A stretch of DNA of 64,000 nt from the NCBI RefSeq assembly GCF_002197845.1, contig NZ_NIDE01000019.1:124001-188000 (forward strand), in the 5' to 3' direction. Positions 22,316 to 40,372 of this stretch are shown in pieces (the first letter of the stretch is position 1; each line of letters opens with the position of its first letter). The DNA comes from Fimbriiglobus ruber. Its GTDB lineage: Bacteria > Planctomycetota > Planctomycetia > Gemmatales > Gemmataceae. A program made the position numbers and the translations under genes. The notes beneath the pieces were generated by a model. That model made no database searches, was not told the origin of the DNA, and saw only the letters and a program-made list of their open reading frames with translations.

Positions 22316-22495
22316 GGCCCGGTTCGACCGGCAAGGTAGCAGGGTTACACTTTTGATCGTCGGCCGTGACCTGGGAAACGTCGCAACCAATTATGGAGAA
22401 GCCTATTCCCTCGAAATCACGGTGACCGCCGGGCGTTAAAACGTGTAACCCCGAGCCGAACCAGACCCAAAAGGATATCTGTGGGGAAACAGACA

Positions 22496-23482
22496 ATGTT
22501 TCTGGGTACCGCGGGCAGTGTGTTGGCCGTAGTCATGTCGGTCCTTCCGGCTGGTCATTGGCACGTATCTGTTGAAACGAAAGTCTTCGACACCAAGACG
22601 CATCACGCCGTCCTGTCCCTGGACGTGAGTGCCGATGTCCGCACTCTGATCGGTAGCGAAGAGTACGGGCGATTGTTTCTGATCGACATCCCCACGAAGC
22701 GGGTGACGAAGGCTCCCCACGAGGTGCCTGCGAACGATGTCTGCCTGAGCAAGAGCCGGCAACTGGTATTCTTCGGCGGGCACATCGGGGCGGACGGGAG
22801 GGAGTGCCTGGCCGTCTACGACATCCTCAAGCAGCAAGTCGTGGGTGAGGTTCGATTGGGGACTCATATCAAGAGCGTTCGTCGGGGTGACGACGGCCAC
22901 ATCCTCTGTTTGACCGGTGACGACGAAGTGATTTGTGTCGACGTGTCCGATCCAGTCCGTCCAACGGTCCGTGGTCCACGATTGACCAATGTCTACGACC
23001 TGAAAACCGACGACCGGATGCGGGCGGCGGTTCTGTTCAAAAACGGTACCTTCCTCGTAACAGACGGGAAAGAGCTTCGGTTCACGTCACCCGACCTCAA
23101 GATCACCGTGCCTACGAAAAATGTCCAGGTGTTCGGTCTGGCACAGGACGAAACTCGGCGAGTCGCGTATTGCGATTCCAATCGAGTGTACCTGGAAGTC
23201 GAGGGGCGAAGTGGCCGGCAGGTCTTGGTGGATCGACCGGACTCAAAATCCGTGGGTGTGTACGCCTGGGGAGCGGATTGGGTGATCTGTCGGACGGCTG
23301 AGATTCTTGTCCTGGACAGCCGGCTCCGTGTGAAGGAGGAAATCTCCGTCCGGGTCAAGGAGTCCGGTGATATCGCGACCGCGTCGGCCTTCACCGTGGT
23401 CAACGACGCGGCCGTTGTGGTCATAGGGAAGGACGATGGCAAAGTCGTACTGTTCACTCTCCGTCGGGCTGCGAAGAAGTAA
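22496..23482 (+). CDS. Beta-propeller-like hypothetical protein, copy 1 of a tandem pair
   Basis: 328 residues. A hydrophobic N-terminus (FLGTAGSVLAVVMSVLPAGH) looks like a signal peptide. The rest has repeated short beta segments such as VLSLDVSADVRTLIGSEEYGRLFLIDIPTKRV, LAVYDILKQQVVGEVRL and ICVDVSDPVRPTVRGPRLTNV, as in WD/YVTN-type propellers; FxGGHxGxDGRE and DAAVVVIGKDDGKVVLFTLRR are also shared with the next gene. The ATG at 22496 has GGGGA 8 bases upstream; an in-frame GTG at 22481 is less likely. Function unknown. Confidence 0.7.
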   Translation: MFLGTAGSVLAVVMSVLPAGHWHVSVETKVFDTKTHHAVLSLDVSADVRTLIGSEEYGRLFLIDIPTKRVTKAPHEVPANDVCLSKSRQLVFFGGHIGADGRECLAVYDILKQQVVGEVRLGTHIKSVRRGDDGHILCLTGDDEVICVDVSDPVRPTVRGPRLTNVYDLKTDDRMRAAVLFKNGTFLVTDGKELRFTSPDLKITVPTKNVQVFGLAQDETRRVAYCDSNRVYLEVEGRSGRQVLVDRPDSKSVGVYAWGADWVICRTAEILVLDSRLRVKEEISVRVKESGDIATASAFTVVNDAAVVVIGKDDGKVVLFTLRRAAKK

Positions 23483-23529
23483 CGGTCGGCTCGAAAGTAT
23501 ATATGCGTTTGCCAGATTGAGAGGCCGAG

Positions 23530-24534
23530 ATGTTCTCAGTTGCCGCGAGTAGTGCCCTGGCCGTGGCACTGGCAGCCTTCCCAATGGTTCATAACCAGAG
23601 CATGGCTGTCGCGACGACAGTTTTCGATACCAAAATTCATTTGGCAATCCAGTCCTTAGACGTAGACGCCGGCGGTCGGACGATCGTCGGGAGCAATGAA
23701 AACGGGCATTTGTTCCTGGTCGATATCCCCACACGGCGACTGACGAACCTTCCTTGCGATCTGGGCGCGACCACCGTTTGCCTGAGCGAGAATCGGCAAA
23801 CGGTGTTCCTCGGCGGACACGGCGGCGGAGACGACACGAAACCCGGGTGCCTGGCCGTGTACGACATTCCCAAGCAGCGGGTCGTCGGCTTATTACCGTT
23901 GGCGAAATTCGTGCGCCGTGTAATGAAAGCTGGGGCGCATCACGTTCTTTGCTTGATTAATGAAGACGAAGTTGTGTGCGTAGATGTGTCCGATCCCGCC
24001 CGCCCTACGATTCGTGGCCCGAGGTTTACCAACGTCTTGAGCCTCATAACTGACGATCAGAAACAACCTGTCCTCCTATTTAATAATGGCGGATTGTTGG
24101 TGACGGATCGCAAAAAAGAATTTCAGCTTACTGTCCCCGCACTTCGGTGCCGCACGAGCGAGCGCATCGGCGACGAATTGACTTTCGGTCTCTCTCAGGA
24201 CACGCCCAGGCGGATGGTCTCTACCAACGGGACAGTGATTCACCTGGACACCGAGGGGAGCGGCATCGGGCGAACCTCCTGGCCTTTATTGGACCGATCT
24301 CCCCTTGGTCTGTATTCGTGGGGAACGGATTGGGTGGTCTGTGACCATGAGAACCTATTCGTCCTGAACGACCAACTGAGACTGAAGGCTAAAGTGTCGG
24401 TTCGGATCAAGGAATCGAGTTTGTTCGCCACTACGTCGGCCTTCACGATTATCAATGACGCAGCCGTTGTGGTGGTCGGAAAGGACGATGGCAAGGTCGT
24501 CCTATTCACCCTCCGTCGGACGGCGAAGAAGTGA
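23530..24534 (+). CDS. Beta-propeller-like hypothetical protein, copy 2 of a tandem pair
   Basis: 334 residues, a clear paralogue of the gene 47 bases upstream: VFDTKIHLAIQSLDVDAGGRTIVGS, LFLVDIPTRRLTNLP, VVCVDVSDPARPTIRGPRFTNV and NDAAVVVVGKDDGKVVLFTLRR align along the whole length. The N-terminus (SSALAVALAAFPMVHNQ) is again signal-like. The middle, TVPALRCRTSERIGDELTFGL, is longer than in copy 1. The ATG at 23530 follows GAGAGG. Probably exported; role unknown. The two copies have diverged well beyond recent duplication, especially outside the listed segments. Confidence 0.7.
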   Translation: MFSVAASSALAVALAAFPMVHNQSMAVATTVFDTKIHLAIQSLDVDAGGRTIVGSNENGHLFLVDIPTRRLTNLPCDLGATTVCLSENRQTVFLGGHGGGDDTKPGCLAVYDIPKQRVVGLLPLAKFVRRVMKAGAHHVLCLINEDEVVCVDVSDPARPTIRGPRFTNVLSLITDDQKQPVLLFNNGGLLVTDRKKEFQLTVPALRCRTSERIGDELTFGLSQDTPRRMVSTNGTVIHLDTEGSGIGRTSWPLLDRSPLGLYSWGTDWVVCDHENLFVLNDQLRLKAKVSVRIKESSLFATTSAFTIINDAAVVVVGKDDGKVVLFTLRRTAKK

Positions 24535-26630: not shown

Positions 26631-29462
26631 ATGCCGAGTCCGCGTCAGGTAGATCCGTTCGGTCCGTTGCTCGATGGCTTCAAAAACGAGCGGGAGAGCG
26701 GGGGCTTTCGTAGCGTCTCCGGGCGAGCGTCTGCGATCCGCGATGTCGCCGCCTCGTGGCTCTGCGACACTTTTCTCGATACTTGCCCGCCTCATCAACT
26801 TTCCGAGCAACTTCAGGCGTTTTACCGGGCTGTCGTGCCGTTGCCCTGGCATGTGACTAATATTGCTCGCCGGGCCGGTCTGATTCGCCACGGCATCGTC
26901 CACCTGTTGCGCGGTCGCGACCCACTTCCTGTCCGGTTGGCTCGCTGTGTGTTGCCCGGCGGGATGTATGCCGTGCCCGGTGTCGGGCCCGCGTTTTGGT
27001 CCGCAATCGCGAAGGCGACCGCCCCCGACAAAGTGCCCGATTGGACCCCAGCGGTTCAAGAGGGCTTGGCGCGGCTCAACCTCCTTGCGGACGACGGCAC
27101 TTCATCCGGTCGGCTGTCGTCTTTCGCTTCCGCACTTTCCGTTTACGAATCCCGCCCCGATTTCTCGGCCACTGACCTGGACACGTTCTTCGCCCGCGCG
27201 TCGGGCATGCGGGGCCGCGAACTGGGTTCGGTTCCCGACGCGCAGGAGCCTTCCAAGGCGATCGCCCGCGCGCTCCGCGAGGTGCGGTCGCGGGTGCCGC
27301 TCAGGAAACGTGCGACGGAGTTCGCCCAGCAACACGCCGACTACCGGGCCGCGTTCGATGCGGGCCGCGCAGCCGGCGACGGTGCGGCGATGGCCAGAGT
27401 CGTCTGGCAGTTGAGCGGGGGCACGGGGGACGCGCCGACCGTACTCGTTTCGCAAGTCTCCGGAGAAGCGTGGTTCAACGACCTCAACTGTGTGCTGGGA
27501 ACGACTGACCTGTCGGAACTCGTCGGCGGGCACGCTGGCCTGGCTGATTCCGCTGCATGGTACACGGCCGGCGTTCTTCACCTCCTCGACCCGACGCGAT
27601 TCCCGGTTTGGAACGACGCCGCGAAGCGCGGGCTGCACCTCCTCGACGACGCGGCCGACCCAGCCCTCGCACCGCTCGACCAGTATTGGCTCTATTGTGT
27701 GGTCGCGCAAGGGCTCCGCGAGGAATACCGGGTCCATCCGGGCGAGTTGCAAGCGGTCCTTGCGGCGTTGGTCGACGCGGCCCGTGTTGAACCCGCTGTC
27801 ACTCCGGCCGGGCAACCTGCGTCACGATTCGACGGGTTTTGCACGGACACATTCCGGTTCCTGGCGGAACTGTCCGGCCACAATCAGACTGGCTGGATGG
27901 CCGCGCAACGCGACCGCTATCGGTTTGTCGTCCGCGAACCGCTCGTCGAACTCTGCACGGCATTAGCCGGGCGGTACGTGCGGCCGGTTCTCGGCGGCGA
28001 ATACGGCTGGGATCTGGAAACTGATCCCCGGCCCGGCCGCACACTGGCGAGCATCCTCAAGCACGGTTCCGGTCAGCCCGGTCCCTATTCGCCGGTCCTT
28101 CGGGCGACGTTCTACCCCCGCGAGCCGGGCCGTAAGCGGGACGACGTGCAATTCTTCATCCGCGTCGACGCGACGGGCGTATCGTTCGGCTGGGAGCTGT
28201 CCCGCTCGGCGCGGGACGCTGGCCGGCGGTTCCGCAAAAACGTGCAGGAACTTGGTGAACAGCTTTACGCGGCTGTTCGCGCGACCGGTGCAATCGACGC
28301 CTGCACGTTCGCGACCGACCCGGCCGCGACAACGACCGCCCCAATCCGGTCGGCCGGTGACTTGCGCGAGTGGGCGTCGGCCAAAGACTTGATCGCGGTC
28401 CGCCACTTGCCCGCCGATTCGCCGACGCTCCGAGCCGACGATCTTGTAGGCGAGATCCTGATTCTGTTCGACCGCCTCGTGCCGTTCTTCGCGGCGGCAG
28501 TCGAGGACGACCCGCTCCCGATCCTGGCACGTCGGGCCGGCACCCTCGGCGCCCGCCCGACGTTCGGTCGGTCGGCGTTCCAGGCCGCGACTTACTTGAG
28601 TGAAGTCTGGCTGACCCGCACGCTCGACCTGCTGCGCCTCAAGAAGCAACTCGTTCTGCAGGGCGTCCCCGGCACCGGGAAGACGCACGTCGCGCGATCT
28701 CTCGCCCGGTTTTTGACCGGCGACCGGCCCGAGAACCAACGGCTCGTGCAATTCCACCCGGGTTACAGCTACGAGGAGTTCGTGGAGGGAATTCGCCCGC
28801 GGGTCATCGAGACGAACGGGCGGAGCGAGGTGAGCTACCCGGTCGAGCCCGGCCTGCTCGCCACGTTCGCCGCGCGAGCCGAGGCGCACCCGTCCGAGCC
28901 GCACGTGCTGGTGATCGACGAGATCAACCGGGGCAACCTCCCGCGAGTTTTCGGCGAGTTACTGTTTCTGCTCGAATACCGCGACCAGGAAATCCTGCTC
29001 CCGTATTCCAAGCGGCCGTTCCGGTTGCCGAACAACCTCTATTTCGTGGCGACGATGAACCCCGCCGACCGCTCGGCGGCGGGCCTCGACGTGGCCCTGC
29101 GCCGGCGGTTTTCGTTCGTGGAGATGGCGCCGGACGCCGCGCTGCTGGCTCGCTGGCTCGACGCCCATTCGCCGGCCGACGCGGATCCGACGTTCGCCCC
29201 GCGGGCCGTCCGGTGGTTCGAGGAGATGAACCGCAAACTCGCCCGGGACGCCGGCCCCGACCGGCTCGTCGGGCACAGCTATTTCATGGTCCCCGACCTG
29301 ACCGCCGACCGCCTCCAGGTCGTCTGGGATCACCACGTCCGCCCGGTGCTGGAGGACGCCTTCCCCGGCCGCCCGGACCGCATCCGCGGGTTCGACCCGG
29401 GCCGCCTCGCCAGTCCTCGTCCGATCGCTAATTCCTTGGGAAAAATCGACGAAGTGGGATAG
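26631..29462 (+). CDS. mcrB: McrB-type AAA+ restriction GTPase with unusual N-terminal domains
   Basis: 943 residues, longer than E. coli McrB. The C-terminal 270 residues are a McrB-type AAA+ domain: Walker A GVPGTGKT near residue 678, Walker B HVLVIDEINRGNLPRVFGE near 759, YFVATMNPADRSAAG near 805 and ALRRRFSF near 822. In the family this motor drives DNA translocation for the McrC nuclease. The first 390 residues are not recognised; residues about 400-540 (FRFLAELSGHNQTGWMAAQR, YRFVVREPLVELC, later GWELSRSARDAGRRFRKNV) resemble DUF2461, a domain of unknown role. The ATG at 26631 follows AGGAGG by 8 bases. It is the first gene of a collinear array that ends with mcrC 6.2 kb away. Confidence 0.88.
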   Translation: MPSPRQVDPFGPLLDGFKNERESGGFRSVSGRASAIRDVAASWLCDTFLDTCPPHQLSEQLQAFYRAVVPLPWHVTNIARRAGLIRHGIVHLLRGRDPLPVRLARCVLPGGMYAVPGVGPAFWSAIAKATAPDKVPDWTPAVQEGLARLNLLADDGTSSGRLSSFASALSVYESRPDFSATDLDTFFARASGMRGRELGSVPDAQEPSKAIARALREVRSRVPLRKRATEFAQQHADYRAAFDAGRAAGDGAAMARVVWQLSGGTGDAPTVLVSQVSGEAWFNDLNCVLGTTDLSELVGGHAGLADSAAWYTAGVLHLLDPTRFPVWNDAAKRGLHLLDDAADPALAPLDQYWLYCVVAQGLREEYRVHPGELQAVLAALVDAARVEPAVTPAGQPASRFDGFCTDTFRFLAELSGHNQTGWMAAQRDRYRFVVREPLVELCTALAGRYVRPVLGGEYGWDLETDPRPGRTLASILKHGSGQPGPYSPVLRATFYPREPGRKRDDVQFFIRVDATGVSFGWELSRSARDAGRRFRKNVQELGEQLYAAVRATGAIDACTFATDPAATTTAPIRSAGDLREWASAKDLIAVRHLPADSPTLRADDLVGEILILFDRLVPFFAAAVEDDPLPILARRAGTLGARPTFGRSAFQAATYLSEVWLTRTLDLLRLKKQLVLQGVPGTGKTHVARSLARFLTGDRPENQRLVQFHPGYSYEEFVEGIRPRVIETNGRSEVSYPVEPGLLATFAARAEAHPSEPHVLVIDEINRGNLPRVFGELLFLLEYRDQEILLPYSKRPFRLPNNLYFVATMNPADRSAAGLDVALRRRFSFVEMAPDAALLARWLDAHSPADADPTFAPRAVRWFEEMNRKLARDAGPDRLVGHSYFMVPDLTADRLQVVWDHHVRPVLEDAFPGRPDRIRGFDPGRLASPRPIANSLGKIDEVG

Positions 29463-29519
29463 ACTCCATGCTCGCCTGAAGGCGGACACCTCTCCCCACG
29501 TCGTCGAGGCCGATCCCAG

Positions 29520-31010
29520 ATGAAAAAATGGCTAAAACGCGTGGCCATTGGTTTGCCGCTAATGGTCGCGCTAGCGATCGTAATTTTTGTTGTTAACTGG
29601 TACTGGACGCGGGCGGCCGGGCTCGCCCGGCGAGATTCGTTGGTCGCGAGGCTCGACGCCGAAGACCCCGGCTGGCGGTTCGCCGACTTGATCGCCGCGC
29701 GGAATGCGACCCTCCCTCCGCAGGACCGGAACGCGGCCGAGGTCGTGGTGAGTGCGGCCAAGCTCGCGCCGAAGTCGGTCAATGGTTGGATCCGAGACGA
29801 GCAACATGCCGAGATGCTGAATTCAAATCATTTGCCGGACAAGAAAGAATATACGTCCATGACCGCCCTCAGCGCGGCGTGCGGTCCGGCCCTCAAAGCC
29901 GTGCGCCCGATCCGCGAATTATCCGGCGGCGGTTTCCGGCAGGAGTTCAGGGTTCCAAACCCTCTGACGGTTACTATGCCATATGTCGCCGATGTGGCGC
30001 AAGTTGTTCATCTCCTCGACTTGGACGCGGCCGCACGCTCGTATCAGGGGCGGCCAAACGAGGCACTGGAATCCGCGCACCTGATCTTAGGGGTCGGCCA
30101 AACCATTGGTGACGAGCCGCTGTTCGTAATGCAAGCCTACCGAATCATGGTCGGGACTTCCGCGAAGCGAGCCGTTCAGCGGACCCTCGCCTGGGGGAAG
30201 CCCACCACCGGTTTGGCGGAAATGCAAGCCGCCTTCGCGGCCGAACTCAAGTTCCCCCGGCTCCGGTGCGCGGCCCGTGGCGAACGGGGAATGTACTTCA
30301 CGGTCCTGCAGAACCTGGAAGACGATAAACTCGGCGTGGTGGATCTTGTCGAGTCGTTCGACTCGTTCGACTCCGGTGTAGCCACGGAGATCCGCGGGGG
30401 GCTACAGAATCGTATCGCGACGACGTACGTCAAGAGGGATGTTCCAGGCCATCAGGCGACGGTGCTTGAATGGTTTGACCAGTTACTCTCCTTCGACAGT
30501 CTTCCCGAACCGGAGCGGACCGCCGCGCTCGAAACCCTCGAACCTCCGTCGATCGACTTCGGCCCGGCGTCCGTTCGGTTCATGTCCAATAGCTGGAAGT
30601 ATTTTCGTACCGCCGACTTGCGAGCCCGGGCTGTCATGAGCGCAACGATCGTGGCGCTGGCGTGCGAACGATATCGCCTCAAGTTCAGCGCGTGGCCCGC
30701 GACCCTGGCGGCCATTTCACAAGACATCCTCCCCGAACTCCCTACCGACCCGTATACCGGCGGGCCGTTAGCGTACAAGATCGTACCCGACGGGGCGGTA
30801 ATCTACGCGACCGGGCCCGACCGTACCGACGACGGCGGTGTAACGCTAAATGATTTTCTCCCACTTAAGGGGGAAGACATCGGCTTCCATAAGGGGGAAG
30901 ACATCGGCTTCCGCCTCTGGAATCCGGATAAGCGGGGCTTGCCGCCACTGGCGAGCCCCGCCATAGGTGGACCTCGACTTGCCGCCGCTGATCCGAATAG
31001 CCAGCCATGA
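29520..31010 (+). CDS. Membrane-anchored paralogue 1 of 4 inside the mcrBC locus
   Basis: 496 residues. KKWLKRVAIGLPLMVALAIV is a basic cap plus a single membrane helix to about residue 27, followed by NWYWTRAAGLARRDS. The extracytoplasmic part begins with LDAEDPGWRFADLIAARNAT, has a helical middle (IGDEPLFVMQAYRI; TLAWGKPTTGLAEMQAAFAAE) and ends with ALACERYRLKFSAWPATLAA, DPYTGGPLAYKIVPDG and YATGPDRTDDGG. This end resembles the C-terminal fold of GspG-like pseudopilins, but there is no prepilin peptidase site. A 24-bp duplication gives KGEDIGFH-KGEDIGFR near the end. ATG 58 bases after mcrB; GAGG 10 bases upstream. Function unknown. Confidence 0.75.
   Translation: MKKWLKRVAIGLPLMVALAIVIFVVNWYWTRAAGLARRDSLVARLDAEDPGWRFADLIAARNATLPPQDRNAAEVVVSAAKLAPKSVNGWIRDEQHAEMLNSNHLPDKKEYTSMTALSAACGPALKAVRPIRELSGGGFRQEFRVPNPLTVTMPYVADVAQVVHLLDLDAAARSYQGRPNEALESAHLILGVGQTIGDEPLFVMQAYRIMVGTSAKRAVQRTLAWGKPTTGLAEMQAAFAAELKFPRLRCAARGERGMYFTVLQNLEDDKLGVVDLVESFDSFDSGVATEIRGGLQNRIATTYVKRDVPGHQATVLEWFDQLLSFDSLPEPERTAALETLEPPSIDFGPASVRFMSNSWKYFRTADLRARAVMSATIVALACERYRLKFSAWPATLAAISQDILPELPTDPYTGGPLAYKIVPDGAVIYATGPDRTDDGGVTLNDFLPLKGEDIGFHKGEDIGFRLWNPDKRGLPPLASPAIGGPRLAAADPNSQP
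30867..30912 (+). repeat. 24-bp tandem duplication in paralogue 1
   Basis: A 22-base unit beginning AAGGGGGAAGACATCGG occurs at 30867-30888 and 30891-30912 with a period of 24, adding 8 residues relative to the other three paralogues. Confidence 0.85.
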
Positions 31011-31103
31011 CCACGCCGGGGTAAACTGTTTTTCATCTCGGGCCACGCGGTTCAAAAGACTGCTTCCGCGAGAGATTCAGCACCCGGACAAGGTTCGTCC
31101 CTC

Positions 31104-32540
31104 ATGAAGAAATGGCTCAGGCGTGCGGCGTACGGCACAGTCGTGTTACTCGCGCTACTGGTCGTCGGCATCGTCATCGGCTGGTACAGCGTACGAGCCG
31201 TGGGCTTTTCCCGGCGCGATGCCATCATCGCGAAATTGGACGCCGAAGACCCGAACTGGCGGGCGGCGGACCTGTGCGCGACGCGCAACGCGACGTTGCC
31301 ACCCCCCGATCGCAACGCGGCTGATATCGCGGTGCGAGCCGCGACGGTGGCGCCTCAGGCACTGTTCGATTTTCGCTTCACTTATTTGCTGAGCGGGCCG
31401 CCCGACCGGAACCACTTTCCCGAAGAGGCCGATCTCGGGCCGATGGTCGAGCTACATTCCGTCTGTTCCGGGGCTTTGAAAGTCGCGCGGCCCATCAGCC
31501 ACGTCAACGGCGGCGGTCTCCGGTTCGACTTCCCCGAGCCCAACCCCCAAGTTGATTCGTTGCCGAAAAACAAGGAACTCCGCTACGCCGGGTCGTTGCT
31601 GTTGATGGACGCGATCGTTCGGGCGAACCAGGGCAAACCGAACGACGCGATCGAATCTGTCCGCGCGATTCTCAACATTGGAAAGGCGGTGGGCGACGAA
31701 CCGACCGTCCTGGCACAGATGCTTCATATGTTTCTCGCCAATCTTTCCGTTCTTGCGACCGAATGGACGCTCGGATGGGGAACGCCGACTGCAGGCTTGG
31801 AGGAATTGCAAGCGGCTCTCGCGAATGAGCTAAAAGACCCACGACTCACACACATCTTTCGCGGCAAGCGGGCGGAGTTCTTTCTCCTTTCGGAAAACCT
31901 CGATGCCGGCCAACTCAGCCTGAGCGACTTCGTCGACGAGCCGGTCGGCGACCTCCAGGACCATGTCACAACCCGCGTCTGTCGGTTGTTCGGCCCGAGC
32001 CAACAGGCGACGGTGTTCGAGGTCATAGATCGGATTCTCGCCGCCGACAAACTGACCGGCCCGGAACGAATAGCCGCATTCGACGCCGTTCAGGTTCCCA
32101 AGAACGTGAAGGACTACAAAACCATCCTGGCCGCGATGCCGTTTGTGGGCTGGGAGGCGATCAAGCGGGCCGACGATCAAGTCAAGGCGTCGCTGGGGGC
32201 AGCCGTCGTCGCGCTGGCTTGCGAGCGTTACCGTCTAAAATTTGGCTCGTGGCCCAAGTCCCTCTCGGCCATTCCGAGCGAGATTCTCACGGAAGTTCCT
32301 GTCGACCCGTACACCGGCGGGCCGCTGCTGTACAAGATCCTTCCCGATGCCGTGGTGGTCTATTCGACGGGCCCGGACATGACCGACGACGGCGGCACGG
32401 CGCTGGATACCAAAGGTGGCGCGGGCACCGACATCGGCTTCCGGTTATGGAACCCGAAATTGCGCGGCCTGCCGCCGTTGTCGAAAATGGGCGGTGGCGC
32501 AAAACCTCTCGGTACACCCAACTCAAACCCGCGACCGTGA
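31104..32540 (+). CDS. Membrane-anchored paralogue 2 of 4 inside the mcrBC locus
   Basis: 478 residues. It starts MKKWLRRAAYGTVVLLALLV, a short basic cap and one membrane helix, then GWYSVRAVGFSRRDA. It shares LDAEDPNWRAADLCATRNAT, VGDEPTVLAQML, TLGWGTPTAGLEELQAALAN and the C-terminal ALACERYRLKFGSWPKSLSA, DPYTGGPLLYKILPDA and STGPDMTDDGG with its neighbours. The ATG at 31104 has only a weak site (AAGG at about 12 bases); the gene is separated from paralogue 1 by 93 bases and from paralogue 3 by 99. Function unknown; same-strand position suggests co-expression with mcrB. Confidence 0.75.
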   Translation: MKKWLRRAAYGTVVLLALLVVGIVIGWYSVRAVGFSRRDAIIAKLDAEDPNWRAADLCATRNATLPPPDRNAADIAVRAATVAPQALFDFRFTYLLSGPPDRNHFPEEADLGPMVELHSVCSGALKVARPISHVNGGGLRFDFPEPNPQVDSLPKNKELRYAGSLLLMDAIVRANQGKPNDAIESVRAILNIGKAVGDEPTVLAQMLHMFLANLSVLATEWTLGWGTPTAGLEELQAALANELKDPRLTHIFRGKRAEFFLLSENLDAGQLSLSDFVDEPVGDLQDHVTTRVCRLFGPSQQATVFEVIDRILAADKLTGPERIAAFDAVQVPKNVKDYKTILAAMPFVGWEAIKRADDQVKASLGAAVVALACERYRLKFGSWPKSLSAIPSEILTEVPVDPYTGGPLLYKILPDAVVVYSTGPDMTDDGGTALDTKGGAGTDIGFRLWNPKLRGLPPLSKMGGGAKPLGTPNSNPRP

Positions 32541-32639
32541 CACGTCCGGTATCATCATCAACAATCGCTGCGTAGCCGACTGATCTTTCGGCATGTCACT
32601 CTTCGGAACAAAGACTCCCCCGTTCGAGGTTTGCCGGAC

Positions 32640-34085
32640 ATGAAAAAGTGGCTCAAGCGTGCGGCGATCGGGGTGGCGGTTTCGATCCTGATCACGGTCG
32701 CGGGCTTCGTTTTCGACTGGTACTGGACTCGGTCGGCCGGGATCGAGAGGCGGAATACCGCTGTCGCTAAACTCGACGCCGAAGACGCCCATTGGCGGGC
32801 CGCCGATTTGTGCGCGGCGCGGAACGCCGCGCTCCCACCGCCGGACCGCAACGCGGCCGAGGTCGCGATTCGGGCGGTGGACCTGGCACCCAAGGCGCTG
32901 ACCGATTATCGCGCGGGCGAGGAGTGGCGCGAAGCCACTCAACCCAATCACTTGCCGAACGCGGCGGACCTTCGTCCACTGATCGCCGTCCACGATCAAT
33001 GCGGGGAGGCTCTGAACCTGGCGAGGTCCGTTCGCCTGATGACCGGGGGCGGATTTAGACTCGACTTTGCCGAGCCTAATTCACTCGCGACACTTCTCCC
33101 GTACACGCAAAAGATCCGCCAGACTGGGATGCTTCTGGATATCGACGCAGTCGTCCGGGCGTACCAGGGGCGGCCGAACGAAGCCATCGAATCCGCCCAC
33201 GCCCTGCTCAACACCGGACGGGCACTCGGAGACGAACCGACGTTCATCTCGCAACTGGTCCGGATGGCGGTCGTCACCATTTCCAAAAAGGCGACCGAAC
33301 GGACGCTCGGGTGGGGTAAGCCGACGGCCGGACTGGCCGAATTGCAAGCGGCCTACGCGGACGAACTCGCCGCGCCGCGGATCACCTACGGGCTCCGGGG
33401 CGAGCGGGCGTCGCTCTTTTCCCTCATGCAGAATCTGGACGACGGTAAACTCGGTCTGTCCGGCCTTGTGGACGACAAAGTCGGTAGCGGGCTTCGGGAC
33501 CGGGCCACGACGTTATTCGGCCGGAAGTTCATCTCGGGCCAACAGGCCACGTTGCTCGAAATCTTCGGCCAACTCCTCGCGGCCGACAAGCTTTCCGGCC
33601 CGGAGCGCGATGCGGCGTTCGAAGCAGTTCCGATTCCGCCGAAAGACTTCGAGAACTTCCTGATTCGCCTACTACTCCCGGCGTGGCACAAGATGAACGC
33701 CGCCGAAAACCGGACGCGGGCCGTTCTCGGATCGACGGTCGTCGCGCTGGCGTGCGAACGCTACCGCCTCAAGTTCGGCAAGTGGCCCGCCACGCTCGCC
33801 GACATCCCGAAGGAGATTCTTCGCGAGGTTCCGGCAGATCCCTACACCGGCGAAGCGCTGCTGTACAAGATCTTGCCCGACGGTGCCGTGGTCTACGCGA
33901 CCGGCCCCGATCGGATCGATAACGGCGGCACCAGCCTCACCGACAAAATGAATGTGATTTTGGGCACCGACATCGGCTTCCGCCTCTGGAACCCGGACCA
34001 GCGGGGGCTGCCGCCGCTGCCGAAGCCGGCCTCGGACGATGGAGCACTACCGCCGCCCGGCTTTCCGCCCGGCGGTCGGCCGTAA
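32640..34085 (+). CDS. Membrane-anchored paralogue 3 of 4 inside the mcrBC locus
   Basis: 481 residues. KKWLKRAAIGVAVSILITVA forms the cap and membrane helix, followed by FDWYWTRSAGIERRN. Shared blocks are LDAEDAHWRAADLCAARNAA, LGDEPTFISQLVRMAV, TLGWGKPTAGLAELQAAYAD and ALACERYRLKFGKWPATLAD, DPYTGEALLYKILPDG, ATGPDRIDNGG, DIGFRLWNPDQRGLPPLP. It appears closest to paralogues 1 and 2. An in-frame TTG at 32631 adds three residues; the ATG at 32640 is preferred as it aligns with the MKKW start of the other copies. Role unknown. Confidence 0.75.
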   Translation: MKKWLKRAAIGVAVSILITVAGFVFDWYWTRSAGIERRNTAVAKLDAEDAHWRAADLCAARNAALPPPDRNAAEVAIRAVDLAPKALTDYRAGEEWREATQPNHLPNAADLRPLIAVHDQCGEALNLARSVRLMTGGGFRLDFAEPNSLATLLPYTQKIRQTGMLLDIDAVVRAYQGRPNEAIESAHALLNTGRALGDEPTFISQLVRMAVVTISKKATERTLGWGKPTAGLAELQAAYADELAAPRITYGLRGERASLFSLMQNLDDGKLGLSGLVDDKVGSGLRDRATTLFGRKFISGQQATLLEIFGQLLAADKLSGPERDAAFEAVPIPPKDFENFLIRLLLPAWHKMNAAENRTRAVLGSTVVALACERYRLKFGKWPATLADIPKEILREVPADPYTGEALLYKILPDGAVVYATGPDRIDNGGTSLTDKMNVILGTDIGFRLWNPDQRGLPPLPKPASDDGALPPPGFPPGGRP

Positions 34086-34226
34086 CCGGACGTCGTTTGT
34101 TTGCAGTTGGAGATCGACCATCGAGTTATGCATCTGGCACACATTCATCGGGACTTAACTGCGCGTCAGGTACCCTCAACTTCGGCCGTCGGCGTGAGGA
34201 CTGTCAGCTTGTTGAGGCTTGACGCG

Positions 34227-35678
34227 ATGAAAAAATGGCAAATCCGCCTGATACTCGGTGCGACGGGGTTGCTCGCGATCCTGGTTGTCGCGGTCGTCGT
34301 GGAATGGTATCGGGGACGGGAGGCGGGCCTCGCCCGGCGGAACGCGGCAGCCGCTAAACTCGACGCCGAAGATCCCACGTGGCGCCTGACACAGTTGTAC
34401 GCCGAACGGAATGCGGCACTCCCCCCGCCTGAACAGAATGCCGGCGTCGTCGTCGTTCGAGCCGTCGGTTTACTGGAGATGGGATACATCCCCTGGCTCT
34501 ATCCCGGCGCGAGTTTACTGGGCAAAGGACCGGTATCGAATCACCTCCCGCAGGAAGGTACCGTTGCCAGAGTGAAGGTCGCCCTTGAGGGCACACGTCC
34601 CGCGATTGAACTGGCGCGAACCGCACGGAAGTTCCCGAAAGGGGGATTTCCGAGAAATGTTGACGCTTCAACTCCGCCCGCGGACACGTCGGACAAATCG
34701 GTGGCCGTCCGCGCTGGTGCCGCTCTGCTTCGCGAAGACGCGCTCGCCAACGCGTGTGACGGTCGCGGCAACGACGCGCTCGAATCATCTGCTACCATTC
34801 TGCACTGCGCGAAGATCATCGGCGACGAACCGACGCTCTTATCGCACCTCGCCTGCCTCGGCACCACCAGCACCGCGAAAGAGAGCATCGAACAACTCCT
34901 GGCTTGGACCGAGCCGACGAGTGACGAGGCACTCGGACAGGTCCAGAAGGCCTGTGCCGACGAGTTGGCCGAACCGCGCCTCACGCAACTGCTGCGGGCC
35001 GAGCGAGCCGCACTCTGGTCTCGTCTGCAAGACTTCGACGACGGCACGACGCCCTTCAGCGGTTTGAAGACTCTACTGCCTGGCGAAGAAGCCGGGCCTG
35101 GAGGTTTAAGTGACCACGTGTTGGCCGTTTTCTACCGGAGAATCTTGCCCGACAAGCAGGCGACGGTCGCCGACCTGTTTCGAGAGATGTTGGACGCCGA
35201 TAAGTTGCCCGGCGTGACCCGCCAGGCCAAGTTTGACGAGATCGCCTCCCGGTGCCCGGCCCGTGACGACTCGGTGTTCTTTGGCGCATCGATGTTGCTC
35301 GACGTGCGAGCCCACGTCCGCCATCACGATCGGGTTCGAGCGCAAATGACCACGGCGGTAGCCGCATTGGCGTGCGAACGCTACCGGCTGAAAACGGGCT
35401 ATTGGCCTTCGGACCTTGCTGAGATCCCGAAAGATATTCTCGCGACCATCCCGACCGACCCGTACACCGGTGGACCGTTGGTCTACAAGAAACTGCCCGA
35501 CGGCTTGATGATCTATACGACCGGCCCCGATTTACACGACGACGGCGGCATCGTTCTTCGTAATCTTGAAGCACCGGGCAATGACATCGGGTTCCGGCTC
35601 TGGAACCCGGACCAGCGCCGGCAACCGCCCCTTCCAGTACCCCACGACCGCCGGAGACATCACGGCCAGCGGATGTGA
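34227..35678 (+). CDS. Membrane-anchored paralogue 4 of 4, overlapping mcrC
   Basis: 483 residues, the most divergent copy. KKWQIRLILGATGLLAILVV is the cap and membrane helix, then VVEWYRGREAGLARRN, LDAEDPTWRLTQLYAERNAA, IGDEPTLLSHLACL and ALACERYRLKTGYWPSDLAE, DPYTGGPLVYKKLPDG, TTGPDLHDDGG. An in-frame start at 34101 would add 42 residues, but the ATG at 34227 matches the MKKW family start and has TGAGG 9 bases upstream. Its stop codon overlaps the mcrC GTG by the sequence GTGA at 35675-35678, the usual arrangement for translational coupling, so this member at least belongs to the mcrC transcript. Confidence 0.78.
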   Translation: MKKWQIRLILGATGLLAILVVAVVVEWYRGREAGLARRNAAAAKLDAEDPTWRLTQLYAERNAALPPPEQNAGVVVVRAVGLLEMGYIPWLYPGASLLGKGPVSNHLPQEGTVARVKVALEGTRPAIELARTARKFPKGGFPRNVDASTPPADTSDKSVAVRAGAALLREDALANACDGRGNDALESSATILHCAKIIGDEPTLLSHLACLGTTSTAKESIEQLLAWTEPTSDEALGQVQKACADELAEPRLTQLLRAERAALWSRLQDFDDGTTPFSGLKTLLPGEEAGPGGLSDHVLAVFYRRILPDKQATVADLFREMLDADKLPGVTRQAKFDEIASRCPARDDSVFFGASMLLDVRAHVRHHDRVRAQMTTAVAALACERYRLKTGYWPSDLAEIPKDILATIPTDPYTGGPLVYKKLPDGLMIYTTGPDLHDDGGIVLRNLEAPGNDIGFRLWNPDQRRQPPLPVPHDRRRHHGQRM

Positions 35679-36913
35679 ATTTGACCCGACCCCACCGAAT
35701 CATTGTCGTCACCGAGCGCCGCCCGGTCATACGGCGACTACCCTGGGCGGACATCGACGATTTGCTCCGCTCGTTTCGCCCCCTCGTTGACATCGTGCCC
35801 ACCTTCACGCGCGGCGAATACCGGCTCACCCCACGCGGCCACGTCGGTGTTTTCCACACGACCAACTTGACCTGGCACGTCCGCCCGAAGATCGGGTGGA
35901 CGGGGTTTCGATTCCTCCTGGGAGAAGACATTCCCGCCCGAGCGGGCGGCCCCACGCAGCGCGAGGCGGACTGGCCGGCTGAGCTGGCAACGCTCGTCGC
36001 ACACCGTCTTGCCGTGCTGATGTACGAACGCGCAACGGCTGGTTTGCTCCGCGGGTACGCCGAGCGCGAGACGGTCTCCGATACCGTCCGCGGCCGCATC
36101 GACCTCGGCCGTCAGACGCGCGAAGCCGGCCGTATCGTCCATCGGTTCCACCTGATCGAAGACGAGTTCACGACTGACATCGCTTGGAACCAGATCCCCG
36201 TCACCGTGGCACATGACCTGTTACAAAGAATTGGTCTCGCGCCAGACGTGCGCCTCTTGCTCACGCGGGCTGTTGACCTTTACCCTGGCGTCACGCGGCT
36301 ATCCAGGCTCACGCCCGAATCGTTCGGGCGACTCGTTTACGACCCGCGGACCACGGCGTACCGGCCGCTCATTGAGCTATGCCGACTCGTCGATACCTCG
36401 CCAGGGCCAGCCTCCGCTTCAGATAACGAGGTCGCCCACAAAACCAGTCTGTTGCTTAACTTGGAACAACTGTTCCAACAACACGTCACCAGAATTCTGA
36501 GCCAATCAACTCGTTTGCCGGCGGGCTGGACCGTCAACCCGACTCCGCCTGTCGTGCTGCGATCGTCATCGGGCACGGGCGATCTCGAACTCTTGCCCGA
36601 CTTGCTCGTCGCGGACGCGGCAGGCGGGACACGTGGCGTTTGGGACGTGAAATGGAAGCGGCTCGCGGAAACCGGTCCGGAACCGGCGGACGCCCATCAA
36701 GCCCTCGGGTACGCGGCCGCCACCGGCTCCCGGGTCGCCGGCCTGATTTACCCGGGTCGGCGGTTTGCCGTCCGCAGCTACTCGGCCGACGGTGGGGTGA
36801 GGCTTTTCGTCGTAACACACCGAGTTGCGGGCACGGCCGTCCGCCTCGATCAAGGGATCGACCGCCTCGTACGGCTCGTTTTTACGACCGGGAATGGTCC
36901 GGCGGCTCTGTGA
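35675..36913 (+). CDS. mcrC: McrC-type nuclease subunit
   Basis: 412 residues. McrC carries the nuclease of McrBC-type restriction and stimulates the McrB GTPase. The C-terminal half shows a PD-(D/E)xK arrangement, LELLPDLLVAD near residue 306 and RGVWDVKWKRL near 322, and the rest has the family features TPRGHVGVFHTTNLTWHVRPK, LLRGYAERETVSDTVRGRIDL and EVAHKTSLLLNLEQLFQQHV. The start is GTG, overlapping the stop of the fourth membrane paralogue by four bases. It is thus separated from mcrB by four genes rather than directly adjacent. Modified-DNA specificity would come from McrB and cannot be read here. Confidence 0.9.
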   Translation: MNLTRPHRIIVVTERRPVIRRLPWADIDDLLRSFRPLVDIVPTFTRGEYRLTPRGHVGVFHTTNLTWHVRPKIGWTGFRFLLGEDIPARAGGPTQREADWPAELATLVAHRLAVLMYERATAGLLRGYAERETVSDTVRGRIDLGRQTREAGRIVHRFHLIEDEFTTDIAWNQIPVTVAHDLLQRIGLAPDVRLLLTRAVDLYPGVTRLSRLTPESFGRLVYDPRTTAYRPLIELCRLVDTSPGPASASDNEVAHKTSLLLNLEQLFQQHVTRILSQSTRLPAGWTVNPTPPVVLRSSSGTGDLELLPDLLVADAAGGTRGVWDVKWKRLAETGPEPADAHQALGYAAATGSRVAGLIYPGRRFAVRSYSADGGVRLFVVTHRVAGTAVRLDQGIDRLVRLVFTTGNGPAAL

Positions 36914-37092: not shown

Positions 37093-37728
37093 ATGAATGC
37101 CGGACATTACACGGCGCTGGACGCGAGTGTGTTGGTCCTGAACAAGATGTTCATGGCCGTCCACGTAATCAGCGTCCGGCGGGCGTTCTGCCTGTTGTGC
37201 AAGGAACTCGCCGAGGTCGTACTCCTCGAAGAAGGCCAGTACGTCTCGTATGACTTCTCGACGTGGGCCGAGGTGAGCGCGTACCGGGCCAAGCACTTCC
37301 GCAAGGAAGAGGACGACTGGGTCCGCACCGCGAACGCCGAGATCCAGGCCCCGCGGGTGATCCGCCTGCTGGACTACGACAAGGTTCCGCGGCAGACGGT
37401 GAAGTTCAACCGGCGGAACATCTTCGCCCGGGACAACAACCAGTGCCAGTTCTGCGGGAAGAAGTTCCCGACCTCCGAACTGAGCCTGGACCACGTGATC
37501 CCGCGGAGCCAGGGCGGGCAGACGACCTGGGACAACATCGTGTGCGCCTGCGTCGACTGCAACGTCCGGAAGGGCGGGCGGACGCCGCGGCAGGCGAACA
37601 TGACGCTCATCCGCAAGCCGGAGAAGCCGAAGCGGAGCCCGGTCCTGAACATGAAGATGAGCCAGAAGAAGTACCAGTCCTGGCAGTCGTTCCTCGACAG
37701 TGCCTACTGGTCCGTCGAACTGAAGTAA
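37093..37728 (+). CDS. HNH endonuclease family protein
   Basis: 211 residues. The N-terminal 90 residues (LDASVLVLNKMFMAVHVISV, RRAFCLLCKELAEVVLLEE) precede an HNH module with two Cys pairs: CQFCGKK, LSLDHVIPRSQGGQTTWDNI and CACVDCNVRKGG, which place the zinc Cys residues and the D-H...N...catalytic set as expected. This architecture is widespread in planctomycetes as a stand-alone protein, and its DNA target or role is not established. An in-frame TTG at 37057 would add 12 residues, but the ATG at 37093 with GAGAGGG upstream is preferred. It has its own promoter, so a link to mcrBC is not implied. Confidence 0.85.
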   Translation: MNAGHYTALDASVLVLNKMFMAVHVISVRRAFCLLCKELAEVVLLEEGQYVSYDFSTWAEVSAYRAKHFRKEEDDWVRTANAEIQAPRVIRLLDYDKVPRQTVKFNRRNIFARDNNQCQFCGKKFPTSELSLDHVIPRSQGGQTTWDNIVCACVDCNVRKGGRTPRQANMTLIRKPEKPKRSPVLNMKMSQKKYQSWQSFLDSAYWSVELK

Positions 37729-39085: not shown

Positions 39086-40372
39086 AGTAGTTTCCATTTT
39101 ACGTCATCCCGTATGTGGTGACGAGTCAAGCTCTTGTGTCGCTTTCTGCAGGTAGGCGAGAAAGTCGTCGAGGACATCGCGATACCTTGGTGGCTTTGCC
39201 TTCATGCCCGCTCGCATGGCTTTTTGACCACGCTTTTTCGTCGGAATGGCCAGACGCACCAACCATTGCCACACGTTTCGCAAGAACAGCGACAGGCCGA
39301 CCAGCAACAGACGATACCGCGGGTCCCGCGACGACGTTCTCGCTCGCGACTGGTTCAACTGGCGATAACTCGCTTCGATCCCAAAGCGCTTCCGATACCT
39401 CTGCCGAGCGTCCGTCGGCGACAACCGGACTTTCCAGGTGGCGAAAAATAGCTTCTTGTTCACGCGCTTCTTGTTGCGATTGACATGAGACTTGTAGGTG
39501 ATGATCAATCGGAATTCGACCGATTCGGCGCCCGCGTGGTGCGTGTACTTGTGCGATCCCGCTTTCCAACGCCGGCACGCCCGCATCCCCTTGGCTTGGC
39601 GGCCTGGCTTCGGCTTGCGACCACGCATGACCACGGGAATGATGAACGGGAGGTTCTGATTCTGGAGCCACGTCATCACCGGCACGGTGAAGAAGTAACG
39701 GTCCAGAAGAGCCGTTTTACAGGCGATTTCGAGTTGTTTCACCTCGGCCCACAAGCGGGTGAGCACTTCCGTGGGCTTGTCCTTTTTGCGAACGTACGTC
39801 AACGCCAGTGTAAAACGCCAACCCGCCTCGACCACGCAGACCGTGGCATAGGCATGAAATCGCGTGGTGCCGCGTTCGGGCTTGCAACGATACAGTTCCC
39901 GGTCACTTTTTTTGGGGCGCCGTAATAGGGGATGAGGTGGTAATCGACGGCGACGTCGAGGCGTCGGCCCTTCAATTGGGGGCGCAGGACGGGGAGGCGA
40001 AGCAATTCGTTGAGTCGTCGTTCGAGAGCCGGCACCTGCTGGGACAAGTTGGAACGGAGAAGGTTCCAGAAGGTCTGGTCCTGGACGTCGGGGTAAAGTC
40101 GTTCGACCGCGTGAGAGAGTGACGAGGTGCGTGAGGCGGCCCAGATGAGGGCGGTCCAGAGCATGAGGGCCGTGCAGACGCACGCGTCATCAAACCGGAA
40201 CACGGCCTGACAATGTTCGATGGCGACGGAGAAGGTTTTGACGGAGCTTACGCGAAGTGGCGGCGGAGTGTAAACTCGCATGGAACACAGGCTCCTTCCG
40301 TGGACGCGGTTTGTGGCGCAAACCCTTTACCGAATGGAGCCTGTGTTCTCTAGATCAATTGGAAAGTACTGA
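39086..40372 (-). mobile_element. Insertion sequence, ISH3/IS4-like DDE type, about 1.29 kb
   Basis: The ends carry imperfect inverted repeats: AGTAGTTTCCA reading inward on the left, and (C)AGTACTTTCCA reading inward on the right. The right end also has a perfect 13-bp hairpin, GAACACAGGCTCC at 40283-40295 with GGAGCCTGTGTTC at 40336-40348, just outside the transposase start. A CGGTC duplication flanks the element, and it splits an HTH gene without loss of sequence. Confidence 0.75.
39104..40281 (-). CDS. DDE transposase read through a -1 frameshift
   Basis: Two overlapping frames form one protein of about 392 residues. The upstream frame (40281 down to about 39907) gives a helical N-terminus and the first Asp region DVAVDYHLIPYYGAP. 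The second frame continues with KKSDRELYRCKPERGTTRFH, the second Asp in TALLDRYFFTVPV, and the Glu region YRKRFGIEASYRQLNQSRA. The switch falls on an A7 run (CCCC then seven A, complement of 39907-39917); a -1 slip or one missing A gives the join. Frameshifting on A-runs is a known control in IS elements, but a sequencing deletion fits equally well. The YR-x6-E-x3-Y pattern is that of ISH3/IS4-like transposases. Confidence 0.75.

Follow-up and report, generated by a model that had tools for sequence, protein, structure and literature searches.

A conserved mcrB-P-mcrC arrangement in the Gemmataceae: a possible variant of McrBC restriction with an envelope-linked part

McrBC systems, which cut DNA with modified cytosine, are usually treated as soluble machines of two subunits, and a locus of Fimbriiglobus ruber (Planctomycetota; Gemmataceae) raises the question of what four genes for putative membrane-anchored proteins are doing between mcrB and mcrC. 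McrBC is among the commonest type IV restriction systems (PMC11090510). The locus lies in a stretch of 64,000 nucleotides (contig NZ_NIDE01000019.1, positions 124,001 to 188,000 of the forward strand, assembly GCF_002197845.1), here called the window, to which all unprefixed coordinates refer. P is the name used for the uncharacterised membrane-anchored proteins encoded between mcrB and mcrC, and the short answer developed below is that mcrB, P and mcrC form a conserved arrangement of this bacterial family, in which P may be an accessory part of the restriction system. The features of the locus are as follows.

26631-29462, + strand: mcrB, AAA+ GTPase subunit with an ATG start; AAA_5 match, Walker A and NxxD signature
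29520-31010, + strand: P1, predicted membrane-anchored protein with a helical domain and a GspG-like C-terminus; no curated family
31104-32540, + strand: P2, paralogue of P1
32640-34085, + strand: P3, paralogue; the copy used for structure prediction
34224-35678, + strand: P4, paralogue; 4-nucleotide overlap with mcrC
35675-35678, + strand: GTGA in which the P4 stop and the mcrC start overlap
35675-36913, + strand: mcrC, GTG start; PF10117 match and PD-(D/E)xK motif (PDLLVADAAGGTRGVWDVKW)
37093-37728, + strand: HNH gene, core gene of the family, conserved on the 3' side of mcrC; listed as a neighbour, not as a shown part of the system

An earlier, sequence-only reading of the window had claimed that mcrB and mcrC are separated by four collinear paralogous genes (29520-35678), the last of which overlaps the GTG start of mcrC by GTGA, and both the open reading frames, all on the + strand, and their order bear this out. 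The stretches that it had pointed to, LDAED..WR..RNAxLPP and DPYTGxxLxY, are indeed carried by all four P proteins, whose identity to P1 is 45% (P2), 51% (P3) and 38% (P4). Against Pfam, McrB of the window matches AAA_5 (5.5e-21) and carries the Walker A motif GVPGTGKT and the NxxD signature MNPADRS, and McrC matches PF10117 (2.1e-27). In the host genome (12.36 Mb, 20 contigs) this is the single McrC match, and full-length P homologues occur at the mcrBC locus only, a fifth P match (E-value 0.006) covering 47 positions. P1 also contains a short direct repeat (30867-30914) encoding GEDIGFHKGEDIGFRL, which is absent from the three other paralogues.

Is this arrangement a local oddity? The sequence-only reading had proposed a search for homologues of the four proteins in Gemmataceae genomes. 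PF10117 was searched for in 95 genomes of the family and the neighbourhoods of its matches were fetched (genomes are labelled G, genera g and fetched loci L). The 42 matches, in 41 genomes, are counted as 41 mcrC genes, since L121 and L122 of G007 seem to be the two halves of a single one. P precedes mcrC, on the same strand, at 25 of the 42 matches (14 in g17, five in g33, two each in g1 and g56, one each in g12 and g18), and the arrangement is thus more than a product of chance or a peculiarity of one locus. P abuts mcrC at 24 of these 25 loci; in L081 (g18), the weakest of them, a predicted gene stands between the two and the gap is 0.8 kb. The number of P genes between mcrB and mcrC ranges from one to four, across several genera, and P is a contig-edge fragment in L145 and split in two pieces in L146. 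In 20 of the 25 linked loci, P has mcrB on its 5' side within the fetched stretch; among the other five, L063, L145 and L057 stop at a contig edge, L074 has its mcrB about 10 kb away, and no mcrB was found in the genome of L081. Intact motifs, those of McrBC type IV restriction, accompany the arrangement: all 20 linked loci with mcrB in the fetched stretch have MNxxDRS and 18 of them have Walker A, the remaining two being truncated by a contig end. PD...DxK is present in McrC of all 25 linked loci. As a control, P was found beside none of 26 McrC loci above the cut-off in other families of the same class, 24 of which have a McrB match at most 900 nucleotides away on the same strand (the set excludes G055, whose PF10117 match is below the cut-off, and L191 has only about 450 nucleotides 5' of its match). 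The comparison of 25/41 with 0/26 gives a Fisher value of 7e-8, uncorrected for shared ancestry. Variants of P itself were also seen, e.g., a single frame of 973 amino acids with two P domains, apparently an in-frame fusion of tandem copies (L066:535-3453 of G071), and a homologue with an added cysteine-rich stretch, which we take to resemble a zinc finger, ahead of the membrane helix (L053:7414-9189).

The junctions between the genes speak for a particular tie between P and mcrC. P and mcrC overlap by the 4 nucleotides GTGA in 22 of the 25 loci, L063, L066 and L081 being the exceptions, while an overlap of this length occurs at one of 23 mcrB-P junctions and five of 19 P-P junctions, counts that take in the mcrB-P loci L075, L079 and L096; the loci share ancestry and are not independent trials, the contrast being one within the same operons. 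Five g17 loci without a full-length P still have a possible mcrC start that reads GTGA (5/5, in L140 one of several starts). In L139, one of these five, a search in six frames recovered a remnant of the P C-terminus that ends in the overlap (model positions 450-469, 12.4 bits, E-value 1.4e-5). Because a P remnant and the GTGA start of mcrC remain, secondary loss of P is indicated at least at L139, and P has probably been lost several times in the family.

The history of the unit can be followed in part from trees and from its genomic site. In the McrC tree (40 of the 42 rows, two fragments being left out), P-linked and P-less rows are mixed and eight changes are needed, without power to tell gain from loss, and P was therefore rejected as a clean clade marker; four P-less genes (L142, L144, L147 and L148) form a separate McrC lineage. 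The P copies examined came from the best-scoring loci among the matches listed and amount to 108 rows, 44 of them linked to mcrB and/or mcrC. In the tree of these rows (a quick method with no bootstrap, stretches of fewer than 300 model positions being dropped), the main clade holds 47 rows (support 80), 39 of them linked, and two smaller linked groups (g12/g29 and g18/g57) match McrC groups of the same genera. The four copies of the window form one clade (Shimodaira-Hasegawa-like approximate likelihood-ratio support 97) inside a mostly mcrBC-linked clade, and for this reason look like local duplications in an older mcrB-P-mcrC locus. The usual mcrBC site is marked by the HNH gene (37093-37728 in the window), on which the sequence-only reading was silent and whose NCBIfam matches, to the HNH regions of IscB and Cas9d, are below the cut-off. 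This gene adjoins mcrC on its 3' side at 26 of the 42 matches, P-less ones included, and is present in 86 of the 95 genomes; as a core gene found with or without mcrC, it was rejected as a subunit of the system. Flanking genes are partly common to g17, g33 and g56, and differ at the window, L065 and L074 though the unit is kept. At the HNH site, G088 has mcrB and lacks P and mcrC, and G089 and G035 have none of the three. The unit thus seems ancient, inherited mostly by vertical descent and degraded in some lineages. In some genomes where it has come apart or moved, P is still with mcrC: in G034 (one contig) P, mcrC and HNH are together and mcrB is about 10 kb off on the other strand, and mcrB-P-mcrC in G065 and P-mcrC in G072 are on contigs other than that of HNH. 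An apparent separation of mcrB from P-mcrC in G087 was rejected, both being at contig ends. In G025, G012 and G010, mcrB and mcrC are apart (L154, L155 and L156 with L119, L120 and L123) and no P was found in the fetched stretches.

Rates of change show that P is under selection. Across six close pairs, the ratio of nonsynonymous to synonymous substitution (dN/dS) is 0.15-0.49 for P (five of the pairs, the sixth being saturated), 0.13-0.38 for McrC and 0.006-0.117 for the AAA part of McrB, so that P evolves at McrC's pace. Distances of P and McrC, with those of HNH controlled, are correlated across 20 of the 25 linked loci, five being left out (partial r 0.40, permutation p 0.0075); for McrB and McrC the partial r is 0.80 (17 loci).

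What kind of protein is P? No family in Pfam, PADLOC, NCBIfam or PHROGs was matched by P1-P4 at E-values up to 0.001; a holin-like PHROG for P3 (0.005) and a spanin-like one for P4 over the membrane helix (0.02) were set aside as matches of composition. By sequence, the best match in the PDB was to ribosomal uS2 (0.09). A structure model of P3 from 11 sequences (predicted local distance difference test 85.8, predicted template modelling score 0.85) has a long N-terminal helix that includes the membrane segment, continues as a helical region up to roughly residue 345 and closes with an alpha/beta part at the C-terminus, the helical domain between membrane helix and C-terminal part measuring about 300 residues. 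This C-terminal part, of about 100 residues, superposes on the major pseudopilins 3fu1, 3gn9 and 4lw9 with a root-mean-square deviation of 2.0-2.5 Å over 87-90 residues and Z of 8.5-8.8, a range to be read with caution since values near 8 are common for this aligner and a designed protein scored 8.1. Type II pseudopilins fill six of the first 15 rows of the structural alignment, all aligned to the same part of P3. Foldseek gave no match with an E-value below 0.001 for the full model against the PDB and viral models, nor for the helical domain alone, for which the best Z was 6.7, to a designed helical protein. The GspG-like assignment is made because several pseudopilins agree on the same part and because of the C-terminal sequence pattern, which we take to be shared with GspG-type pseudopilins; with the caution on Z, the modelled C-terminus has a fold like that of GspG. 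P is nevertheless not filed as a pseudopilin, because no N_methyl leader was matched in P1-P4 at E-values up to 1, the N-termini having also been read directly. Among P rows with a detectable helix, 35 of the 41 linked ones and 53 of the 57 unlinked ones have the positive-inside charge pattern of an N-in/C-out protein (rows below 90 bits were dropped, as were 14 rows, several of them fragments, without a hydrophobic window above the threshold). P is thus probably oriented N-in/C-out, with its C-terminal domains predicted to be outside the cytoplasmic membrane. The earlier description of one N-terminal membrane helix and a GspG-like C-terminus agrees with the model, the charge bias and the superposition.

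Known systems resemble the locus in part. Like it, the E. coli McrBC type (NxxD branch) has a McrB GTPase with MNxxDRS and a McrC with PF10117 and PD-(D/E)xK; the difference is that in the window P parts mcrB from mcrC and overlaps the latter, where direct adjacency of mcrB and mcrC is usual for McrBC systems, though not essential. CoCoPALM, as presented in PMC11090510, is a McrBC branch with an FtsB-like membrane fusion, pilus-assembly-linked partners and an NxD McrB. The likeness to CoCoPALM/CoCoNuT is that of a McrBC system with a membrane part and a pilus-type link, whereas the signature is NxxD here and the membrane part a separate pseudopilin-like protein. Because CoCoPALM has the NxD signature and all 20 linked loci with mcrB have NxxD, membership was rejected. 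McrB of the window gave no FtsB match at E-values up to 1. SNIPE (PMC13190303) shows that a membrane-placed nuclease is a real defence strategy, with a DNA-cutting activity sited at the membrane via an N-terminal region. It differs in being a single polypeptide with a GIY-YIG nuclease and DUF4041, neither of which was matched in P1-P4. Finally, P shares with GspG/EpsG the fold of its C-terminal 100 or so residues, and differs in the lack of an N_methyl match and in the extra helical domain of some 300 residues. In titles and abstract openings of the literature on McrBC, Gemmataceae defence and planctomycete pseudopilins, no description of the mcrB-P-mcrC layout was found, in keeping with the sequence-only reading, to which no McrBC system of this kind was known.

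Taken together, the conserved order, the GTGA overlap of P and mcrC, their co-inheritance and the intact McrB and McrC motifs are what the sequences offer in favour of a family-specific, mainly vertical type IV (McrBC) variant, mcrB-P(1-4)-mcrC, with P as a membrane-anchored accessory subunit, a reading to which we give an even chance. P would be anchored in the cytoplasmic membrane by one N-terminal helix with its N-terminus inside, the helical and pseudopilin-like domains being on the outer face, and would be made together with McrC. We infer that it might place or gate the McrBC nuclease at the membrane, where incoming modified DNA would be met at its point of entry, and extra P copies would broaden what is sensed outside. 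A more specific version, in which the pseudopilin-like head detects, on the outer side of the membrane, the entry of phage or DNA and signals via the helix and N-terminal tail to McrBC at the entry site, P duplication diversifying the sensor, we consider unlikely as it stands. Of the envelope-associated arm proposed in the sequence-only reading, the conserved gene arrangement (25/42 matches, GTGA at 22/25), the GspG-like fold and the charge bias hold up; a role in defence stays conjectural.

Several observations weigh against a subunit role. P is missing from 16 of the 41 mcrC genes of the family, and five g17 genomes have mcrC without a full-length P beside it, mcrB adjoining mcrC in three of them and no McrB being found in the other two (G068 and G076). 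A GTGA start of mcrC also occurs without P: in three of eight P-less mcrB-mcrC junctions (L142, L144 and L147, of the other McrC lineage), it is mcrB that forms this overlap with mcrC. Of the 108 P rows, 64 have no mcrB or mcrC linkage in the fetched stretches, some of them on short contigs where linkage may exist beyond the edge; these stretches include 50 P loci, tandem arrays among them, in which neither gene was seen. No common partner was seen among the neighbours of these 50 loci. The largest neighbour cluster at unlinked loci (34 frames, 20 loci) was discarded as a shadow frame, its representative being antisense to P. Other shared neighbours were an ABC-type ATPase, at 5 loci, and a kinase-like and a prepilin-type protein, each at 4 loci; one syntenic trio was also seen. 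Unlinked P is also under purifying selection (dN/dS 0.15-0.44 in seven pairs), P follows McrB weakly (partial r 0.20, n=17), and G030 and G102 have P close to mcrB, with mcrC on a different contig. Moreover, the mean charge in linked P is positive on either side of the helix (+4.1 and +1.7), which keeps the topology from being certain, and if P is outside as modelled, its contact with cytoplasmic McrBC would be limited to the N-terminal tail and the helix. Two of the outcomes that the sequence-only reading had itself named as telling against it are each found in part: array-free mcrC genes exist in the proportion just given, and P genes and arrays occur at loci where the fetched stretch showed neither mcrB nor mcrC. 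The P family can also expand without mcrBC, as in G003, which has on a single contig 14 P matches, some partial, among the matches listed (L113, L116, L125, L128, L131, L134 and L136) and no McrC match.

The main rival is old synteny without function, in which a P copy of a planctomycete envelope family landed early between mcrB and mcrC and was kept by vertical descent with no role in restriction. The core HNH gene that adjoins mcrC at 26 of 42 matches, the flanking genes common to g17, g33 and g56, the 64 unlinked P rows and the persistence of mcrC where P is absent speak for it. It accounts less readily for the retention of the GTGA overlap at 22 of the 25 places where P meets mcrC, against a variable mcrB-P junction, for P having stayed with mcrC after mcrB moved in G034, for P-mcrC kept off the HNH site in G065 and G072, and for the selection on P; we regard it as a real possibility that falls well short of probable. 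An improbable third explanation makes P a brake on the dose or activity of McrC, coupled translation ensuring that the nuclease is made only with a membrane partner which, like an antitoxin or chaperone, would keep it inactive until infection. The concentration of the 4-nucleotide overlap at the P-mcrC junction and the closer tracking of McrC than of McrB by P would fit, but 16 of the 41 mcrC genes do without P, and the bulk of P is predicted to be outside the membrane. Chance capture of a selfish, freely spreading P array by the operon is very improbable and, in the form in which the sequence-only reading had offered a selfish or host-family array, unsupported: tandem P arrays do occur at loci without mcrBC in the fetched stretch, but the window's copies are one clade inside a mostly mcrBC-linked clade, the host genome has no other full-length P, and a search with P3 at an E-value of 1e-5 found nothing among 50,697 phage and 72,556 plasmid records.

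Two further features of the window stand apart from the unit: a transposase-like gene 3' of the HNH gene (39107-40183, - strand; DDE_Tnp_1 match of 2.1e-5, barely above the cut-off) and two similar tandem genes at 22481-24534 with beta-propeller matches below the cut-off.

In all, McrBC is a known system, of which the mcrB-P-mcrC arrangement may be a variant with an envelope-linked part. The locus would offer an entry point to a planctomycete protein family for which the searched libraries have no curated model, and since one genus includes both P-bearing and P-less relatives, what P does can be tested directly. If the subunit reading is true, a conserved membrane partner whose gene overlaps that of the nuclease would mean that restriction is organised at the envelope in one bacterial family.

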